From a virus, in IMG/VR virus record IMGVR_UViG_3300044608_001893, positions 1 through 22,303 of that record: DNA of 22,303 nucleotides. One strand, given 5' to 3'. The notes below the pieces were generated by a model. It was not told where the DNA came from and searched no databases. It saw nothing but the letters and a program-made list of their open reading frames with translations. The first letter of the stretch is position 1; each line of letters opens with the position of its first letter. This document shows positions 185-961 of this stretch, piece by piece. The position numbers and the translations under genes are program-made.

Positions 185-961
185 ATGACCACCACCGCTC
201 CGGCGCTCCGCGCCTACAGCTTCCCCGGGCTGGACAAGCCCGCGTTCATCGCCGAGCTGGCCGAACACGCGGCGCAGGACCGCATCGTGCAGGGCCAATA
301 CTGGGAGAACGGCAAGGGCTGCGCTGTCGGCTGCTCGCTGCACTCCGTCCAGCAGCGCCTTGGCCTTGCCCGCATCGCGTACGACGATCACGCGCTGTAT
401 GAAACCTATCTGGGCATCCCGCGCATTCTGGCCCGTCTGGAAGACCGCATCTTCGAGGGCCTGGAACCCGCCGAAGCCCGCCTCTGGCCCATGCGCTTCG
501 CGGAGGCCGTGCAGCCCGGCGCCGATCTTTCCGGCGTCTGGCACCAGTTCGCACCTTGGCTCTTGCGCGAAATCGCGTTGCCGGCGGTCAGCGACAAGCA
601 CCCCCAGCAACGCGCCGCCATCGTGGCCGTGGCCGAAGGCTTCGAAACCAACTGGTCCACCCTATCCCCGGGCGAGGCAAGGCGCCTCGCCGCCGCCTAC
701 GCCGCCGCCTACGCCTACGCCTACGCCTACGCCGCCGCCGCCTACGCCTACGCCGCCGACGCCGCCGCCGCCGACGCCGCCGCCGCCGCCGCCGCCGACG
801 CCGCCTACGCCGCCGCCGCCGCCGACGCCGCCGCCGCCGCCGCCGCCGCCTACGCCGCCGCCGCCGCGCGCCGATCAGCTCGCCACAAGGCCTACAATAG
901 CATGGCCGCCAAGCTCTGCGAACTGATTTCCGCAGCACCCATCAACGAACTTTCGAAATAG
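185..961 (+). CDS. Ala/Tyr/Asp-tract phage protein of unknown function, copy 2
   Basis: A 258-residue protein. Residues 1-168 are an ordinary globular-looking sequence containing GKGCAVGCSLHS and a YLGIPRILARLEDRIFEGL segment. Residues 169-228 are an almost pure Ala tract with interspersed Tyr and Asp, followed by a conserved basic/helical tail (RRSARHKAYNSMAAKLCELI). I recall similar head-plus-Ala/Tyr/Asp-tract proteins from phages, but no function is known to me. I chose ATG 185 because AGGAGG lies at 174-179, 5 nt upstream. An in-frame ATG at 86 would add 33 residues, but it has only a weak ribosome site. Those extra residues duplicate the start of the small gene at 1950 and are best explained as a duplication remnant. 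The copy differs from copy 3 at a handful of residues outside the tract. Confidence 0.8.
   Translation: MTTTAPALRAYSFPGLDKPAFIAELAEHAAQDRIVQGQYWENGKGCAVGCSLHSVQQRLGLARIAYDDHALYETYLGIPRILARLEDRIFEGLEPAEARLWPMRFAEAVQPGADLSGVWHQFAPWLLREIALPAVSDKHPQQRAAIVAVAEGFETNWSTLSPGEARRLAAAYAAAYAYAYAYAAAAYAYAADAAAADAAAAAAADAAYAAAAADAAAAAAAAYAAAAARRSARHKAYNSMAAKLCELISAAPINELSK
689..868 (+). repeat. GCC/TAC/GAC trinucleotide tract in copy 2 (60 codons)
   Basis: The stretch is built almost entirely from GCC codons, with TAC and GAC codons that differ from GCC at one or two bases. It encodes Ala with interspersed Tyr and Asp. As an in-frame microsatellite it can change length by whole codons without shifting frame. 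The matching tract in copy 3 is 89 codons long, so length variation is visible within this window. Confidence 0.9.

Follow-up and report, generated by a model that had tools for sequence, protein, structure and literature searches.

We found that the Ala/Tyr/Asp tract at positions 689 to 868 of the analyzed viral DNA lies in a member of a family of early phage proteins, in which an N-terminal domain of ~150 residues is followed by an Ala-rich tail and a short C-terminal helix. The reading we favor, with a probability of roughly 55%, is that of an early-region phage protein carrying an anchored helical-hairpin arm that is written by slippage and recombination and filtered by selection. Under the proposed mechanism, a conserved globular N-terminal domain would bear a long Ala-rich arm, extending outward in one helix and returning in a second, and the arm's return would bring the conserved C-terminal helix to pack on the N-terminal domain. 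The (GCN)n-type array would grow, shrink, and homogenize via slippage and recombination among its own repeats, and this homogenization would leave one third codon base per phage. Because the hairpin would be anchored at both ends, arm length could shift by whole codons with the fold undisturbed. Selection would act as a filter that retains mostly Ala together with an aromatic residue (Tyr in tails built of NNY codons, Trp in tails built of NNG codons) and charged residues (Asp, or Glu and Arg), and that keeps Cys, Pro, Gly, and stop codons low in the arm.

Gene copies in the window and their family

The window, by which we mean the whole 22,303-nucleotide stretch analyzed (IMG/VR record IMGVR_UViG_3300044608_001893), is a fragment of a temperate podovirus-like phage. 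It encodes a major head protein (phrog_3437), a virion structural protein (phrog_684), and a tail protein (phrog_376), as well as an excisionase-like HTH_17 protein (2658-2930, plus strand; PF12728, 1.5e-6; phrog_66, 6.2e-8) and a phage integrase (3733-4908, plus strand; phrog_1, 4.5e-20; PF00589 just under the cut-off). Near the integrase, positions 5280-5345 resemble by eye the terminal part of a tRNA gene and might be an attachment site; ARAGORN reported no tRNA in the window. The best listed relatives (26-35% identity) of a capsid assembly/scaffold-like protein at 20923-21825 come from Pelagibacter podophages and uncultured phages; the phage of the window is itself GC-rich and temperate. 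A comparison of positions 1-6000 with the phage collection returned no close DNA relative covering the tract gene.

The gene that holds the tract (copy A, 258 amino acids, 185-961, plus strand) consists of an N-terminal domain (185-688) with the GQYWENGKGCAVGCSLHS and ARLEDRIFEGL motifs, the tract itself (689-868), and a C-terminal segment, YNSMAAKLCELIS (869-961), predicted to be helical and related to a motif found across the family. Read in frame, the tract is 60 codons long (46 GCC, 9 TAC, 4 GAC, and a single GCG, which is the last codon, at 866). The corresponding tract of copy B (gene at 1072-1938, tract at 1579-1845, both on the plus strand) has 89 codons, all of them GCC, TAC, or GAC apart from a GCT, a GGC, and a GCG at the end, and its longest pure run spans 64 codons. 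Both counts agree with the preliminary description. Its term "coding microsatellite" holds as far as the tract is coding and in frame; Tandem Repeats Finder reports an imperfect compound array with best units of 6 to 30 nt rather than a clean trinucleotide microsatellite.

The two copies belong to a tandem arrangement larger than the pair described at first, as positions 1-74 (plus strand) contain the 3' end of another copy farther upstream, truncated where the window begins. Tandem repeats are located at 1-196, 888-1083, and 1865-2060, at a spacing of 887 and 977 bp (1-196 is 99% identical to 888-1083), and imply at least three gene copies. Over the 504 nt of the N-terminal domain, copies A and B differ at 21 nucleotides (13 in synonymous and 8 in non-synonymous codon changes), and, therefore, they are real copies and not an assembly loop. 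Downstream lies an intact small open reading frame (ORF) of 63 amino acids with no assigned role (1950-2141, plus strand), and the same gene follows the single copy in relative L003 (3858-4049). Its start (MHSNQ...SSDA) is duplicated, letter for letter, at 86-184 (plus strand), joined in frame, with a leader, ahead of copy A; a second fused piece precedes copy B (973-1071, plus strand). Because the repeat unit of the window joins the small-gene start to the leader of the next copy, each long ORF has a 33-residue fused front. The single-copy relatives L003, L004, and L005 begin at ATGACCACC, preceded by a CACCAGGAGGCTACC leader, and copy A has the same start and leader. Since these relatives use that ATG behind CACCAGGAGGCTACC, the reading frame of copy A probably starts at 185 and not at 86. 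The tandem-junction sequence is absent from the other viral contigs searched.

Three overlapping scans of IMG/VR viral contigs returned 171, 403, and 364 relatives, and the 80 best from each were analyzed; genome contigs yielded three, and plasmids three weak ones. The contrast between 403 relatives in one IMG/VR scan and 11 in 50,697 deposited phage records (all 11 from Xanthomonas phages) points to a widespread, uncharacterized early phage protein. De-duplication left 218 records, which form 167 clusters at 85% N-terminal domain identity and provide 144 representatives whose tail is 25 residues or longer. The other 23 clusters have no tail of that length, due either to contig ends or to a short or absent tail. 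The 144-tail set omits L001, L002, and L011, whose frame was not recovered, and records with an identical N-terminal domain stretch; one of the latter, L005, is counted only in comparisons of allele length.

The family alignment (A3) has invariant residues H28, D32, G45, C46, C50, G77, P79, L85, D87, F90, E91, and G92, and the window gene shows the N-terminal domain motif, the Ala-rich tail, and the C-terminal helix. A loose pattern for this helix matches 154 of the 158 closed records with a tail. The four without it are L033 and L159 (one frameshifted gene seen twice), the truncated L230, and L009, which ends in what seems to be a variant motif. In L033 (2779-3735), the tail slips out of frame, which leads to a Pro-rich end and loss of the C-terminal helix, as either a natural variant or an assembly error. 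Two closed members without any tail (L022 and L085) lack the C-terminal helix as well. The tail of L228, from position 2001, is made of LAY/LAD/RAD triplets instead of Ala runs, with a period of three.

No family in Pfam-A, NCBIfam, or PHROGs matches the window N-terminal domain at E ≤ 1; other members have weak matches, mostly in the tail (e.g., phrog_3416, of unknown function), and a sequence search of the PDB gave a single match (E = 0.97). Literature listings and abstract openings contained no publication on the family. Among 20 flanking proteins searched, seven matched nothing, and the named ones have early or replication functions: thymidylate synthase and kinase, Sak4-like and RecE/RecT recombination proteins, a DnaC-like loader, a helicase, and others.

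Codon and residue composition of the tails

Codons within a tail almost all share one third base (median 92% across 144 tails), and those of the N-terminal domain are mixed (median 0.36 in the first 64 representatives). The dominant Ala synonym accounts for 5865 of 6356 Ala codons in tails versus 1012 of 2154 in N-terminal domains. Depending on the phage, the shared base is C, T, or G, which divides the 144 tails into 93 NNY (48 C-type and 45 T-type), 21 NNG, and 30 mixed. The choice between C and T loosely tracks codon GC content (median N-terminal domain GC3 of 0.62 versus 0.41, with overlapping ranges). GCA-dominant tails are rare (5/144), and they contradict our initial expectation that such arrays would be absent. 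Among the codons inspected in the five tails richest in A-ending codons, bulky residues are encoded by G-ending ones (TGG, GAG, AGG, and CGG).

Codon counts in NNY tails are dominated by GCY (4320), TAY (689), and GAY (681). The one-step relatives of GCY are scarce, as the preliminary description had anticipated (TCY, 161; ACY, 101; GTY, 89; GGY, 31; CCY, 10), and the remainder comprises CGY (77), AAY (66), CAY (35), TTY (24), CTY (14), ATY (7), AGY (7), and TGY (5). A mutation-only view fails, because the transitions GTY and ACY fall well short of GAY, and TAY is as frequent as GAY despite needing two changes; the Tyr codon TAC had been counted among the single-base changes of GCC, from which it differs at two bases. 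In NNG tails, the substitutions are Ser, Glu, Arg, and Trp (GCG, 769; TCG, 183; GAG, 117; TGG, 98; CGG, 61; AGG, 35; GTG, 24; GGG, 18; ACG, 12; CAG, 10; AAG, 9). Two or more TGN codons are present in 16 of the 21 NNG tails, where they are TGG (Trp), versus 2 of the 93 NNY tails, where they are TGY (Cys) (Fisher's test, P = 2e-13, on tails that are not fully independent). Because the genetic code sets which aromatic residue each third-base class can encode, the difference between classes is partly forced. That each class actually uses its encodable aromatic is unforced, as TGG is used and TGY is avoided.

The claim that the Tyr/Asp bias reflects selection on residue type is thus upheld in part: residue type departs from what one-step mutation would give, but the bias is not universal. 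Of the 144 tails, 51 are NNG or mixed, with mainly Ser, Glu, Arg, and Trp, and some few of the NNY class are rich in Thr, Ser, or Asn. Part of the family therefore shows what had been named as evidence against the claim, namely tracts filled with further one-step variants of GCC. Two aromatic plus two charged residues are missing from 20 of the 144 tails, among them L155 (Thr-rich), L164 (Ser/Asp), L100 (Arg/Leu), and L082 (Asn/Ser). Median net charge per residue is -0.075 in NNY versus -0.012 in NNG tails. Ser contributes ~31% of the non-Ala content of NNG and mixed tails and 8% of that of NNY tails, even though a single change turns GCY into TCY. Overall, residue type is selected, and the rule appears to call for Ala, an aromatic that the array can encode, and a charge, rather than for Tyr and Asp only.

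Among the alternatives, a neutral origin fares best, although we consider it doubtful. The tail would then be a tolerated slippage filler, in which Tyr and Asp persist through copying of the units that hold them. The imperfect 6- to 30-nt units suit such copying, as does the wide range of tail lengths in the family (~12 to 157 residues). Aromatic residues in NNY tails recur at lags of 3, 6, 9, 12, and 15, a pattern that fits copying of 9-nt units. A filler does not account, however, for Tyr and Asp each recurring (at least twice) in 85 of the 93 NNY tails, C-type and T-type alike, for the near absence of TGY where TGG is common, or for the helix that follows the tail in frame in nearly all closed genes.

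The changes between C and T on the N-terminal domain tree also weigh against neutral filler. On a tree of the first 64 representatives, built with a quick method and containing many weak branches, C versus T requires 9 changes, Tyr versus Trp 12, and the four tail classes 21 (shuffled mean, 33.9); the starred branches force only 2-3 changes per flavor. Starred sister pairs that mix classes are L029 (NNT, Tyr) with L083 (NNG, Trp), and the window with L009 (mixed, Trp). Such class switches may represent tails that were either rebuilt or exchanged.

Length variation and predicted structure

Tail length varies among close relatives by whole codons. The five closest alleles, whose N-terminal domains are 96-100% identical, have tracts of 60, 89, 83, 114, and 39 codons, and nearly all length variants come from metagenome assemblies, where repeats can collapse. 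L004 (114 codons) and L005 (39 codons) have zero differences in the N-terminal domain and C-terminal part, and L005 looks like L004 minus 225 nt lost between two direct repeats. L026 and L034, from different metagenomes, align over 3714 nt without a mismatch, and their one 21-nt gap is in the tail. L050 and L051 are 98.5% identical over 2351 upstream nt and differ in their tails, while the two copies on the contig of L035 encode an identical N-terminal domain and tails nine codons apart. Contigs end inside the gene in 14 of 79 cases and start within 300 nt upstream of the match in 3 of 79, an excess of inside ends that would be expected of an unstable or hard-to-assemble repeat. The natural alleles thus confirm that length changes preserve the frame; single-triplet slippage as their cause does not extend to the L004/L005 difference, with its apparent loss between direct repeats.

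Tandem or neighboring copies recur in the family (L184, with three; L197; L035; L021; L055; and the contig of L051). Neighboring copies differ in tail length and, in L055, where a Tyr-type and a Trp-type copy are adjacent, even in residue alphabet. These recurrent copies with different tails, together with the whole-codon variants between near-identical phages, are what one would expect if length itself were the selected output and a population cloud of lengths tuned the protein quickly. We regard such a contingency device as unlikely, given that there is no sign of preferred lengths. Nor does the locus behave as a phase-variable (on/off) one, since the observed variants are whole codons, with one frameshifted tail (L033). 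Of the "built-in length-variation device" initially proposed, the variation is real, and selection on varying, rather than on having an arm, is unsupported.

The AlphaFold2 model of copy A (63 aligned sequences; mean pLDDT, 82.5; pTM, 0.78) has an N-terminal domain mostly above 90, a helix at residues 162-199, a break, and a helix at 207-249; pLDDT is about 50 in the middle of the tail and 92-98 in the C-terminal blocks (77 in the last block). The model of L061, with its Ser/Glu/Arg/Trp tail, shows the same layout: helices to 230, a break at 231-253 (pLDDT 33-47), and a helix at 254-304 that ends at a pLDDT of 97. AlphaFold2 tends to render Ala-rich stretches as helix. The two models suggest that the arm is a helical hairpin with a low-confidence tip and with its C-terminal helix docked back on the N-terminal domain. 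From this predicted hairpin and docking we infer what the tail may do: most likely, it provides an early phage protein with a helical arm or spacer that tolerates changes in length. Foldseek returned five PDB matches, none at E ≤ 0.001, and in a second look with VIA-align the best Z score (4.1) was within background for helical models; neither search of the PDB, therefore, found a known fold.

Residue spacing was consistent with helix in part of the family. In NNG and mixed tails, non-Ala residues recur with a period of 3.64-3.75 (0 of 200 nulls were as strong) and bulky residues with a period of 3.62-3.76 (0 of 200 position shuffles were as strong), and the overall non-Ala peak in mixed tails is at a period of 4.0. 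Shuffles of the order of bulky gaps were equally strong in 124 of 200 cases for NNG and 13 of 200 for mixed tails. Because shuffled gap orders reach the same power, the analysis demonstrates only a 3/4 spacing and no held phase. The NNY (Tyr/Asp) tails, the kind found in the window, show no alpha-helical phase (93 tails), and our initial expectation of such a phase throughout the family was dropped for this class.

The missing phase in NNY tails and the low pLDDT at the arm tip would also suit a disordered low-complexity tail, in which aromatic and charged residues (together about 75% of the non-Ala content of NNY tails and about 56% of that of NNG tails) serve as stickers for binding or clustering and the helix model is an artifact. 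We think this quite improbable: an Ala content above 55% (partly by definition, as the tail finder requires Ala) and few Gly and Pro favor helix, NNG and mixed tails show helical spacing, and the C-terminal helix is conserved. GCN-kind triplet arrays are known to form hairpins and to expand, and yet the idea that the array acts at the level of DNA or RNA rather than through its protein is disfavored as very improbable, since the DNA varies (GCC, GCT, GCG, and in rare cases GCA) whereas the proteins retain the same type of composition, the reading frame is preserved, and TGN appears where it encodes Trp and is avoided where it would encode Cys.

Within the preferred reading of a selection-filtered hairpin arm, we tentatively consider a bolder version. 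The arm may be continually rewritten by triplet-array expansion and always re-edited by selection toward Ala, the aromatic permitted by the third base of the array, and a charge, so that two interchangeable chemical alphabets (Tyr/Asp and Trp/Arg/Glu/Ser) would build one extendable helical hairpin and natural populations would carry clouds of lengths.

Comparison with known systems

Whether low-complexity repeats are neutral or functional is usually judged by argument. This family offers a natural experiment, in which the same arm arises from GCC, GCT, or GCG arrays, and codon-level and residue-level forces can be separated. It is also a clean system for asking whether triplet expansion supplies useful length variation to phages.

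The nearest named relatives are hypothetical proteins of Xanthomonas phages (KPhi1 APQ41939.1 and other records, 11 in total), with N-terminal domains 30-32% identical to that of the window gene. They share its Ala-rich tail and early-gene neighborhood and differ in tail composition, which, in the 2 of 11 tails that were read, combines Ala and Ser with Glu, Arg, Trp, Asp, or Gln and relies on codons of the GCG/TCG type. The sole confident structural match, A0A6J5QCR4 of an uncultured Caudovirales phage (BFVD; E = 8.9e-13; TM, 0.67-0.69; 31% identity), is uncharacterized, like the window protein. Pentapeptide-repeat proteins have repeats of the form A(D/N)LXX, with Leu or Phe central in each five-residue repeat; this class was ruled out, as there is no Leu or Phe within the window tracts.

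A structural analogy may exist with poly-alanine and Ala-rich coiled coils, including Alacoil and honeybee silk. As far as the abstract openings describe them (for polyA/polyQ coiled coils, PMC4049302), Ala-rich helices are the shared feature, and outward aromatic and charged residues would fit. An Alacoil-like coiled coil, in which Ala lines the interface of two antiparallel helices, would agree with the helix-break-helix predicted in two members and less well with the NNY tails, which show no helical phase; the antiparallel packing of the phage arm is a prediction. The whole-codon change in repeat length resembles the amino acid repeats proposed as "tuning knobs," as presented in the opening of that abstract (PMC6839033). 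The present case differs in that the repeat belongs to a phage gene and comes in two codon classes with different residue alphabets.
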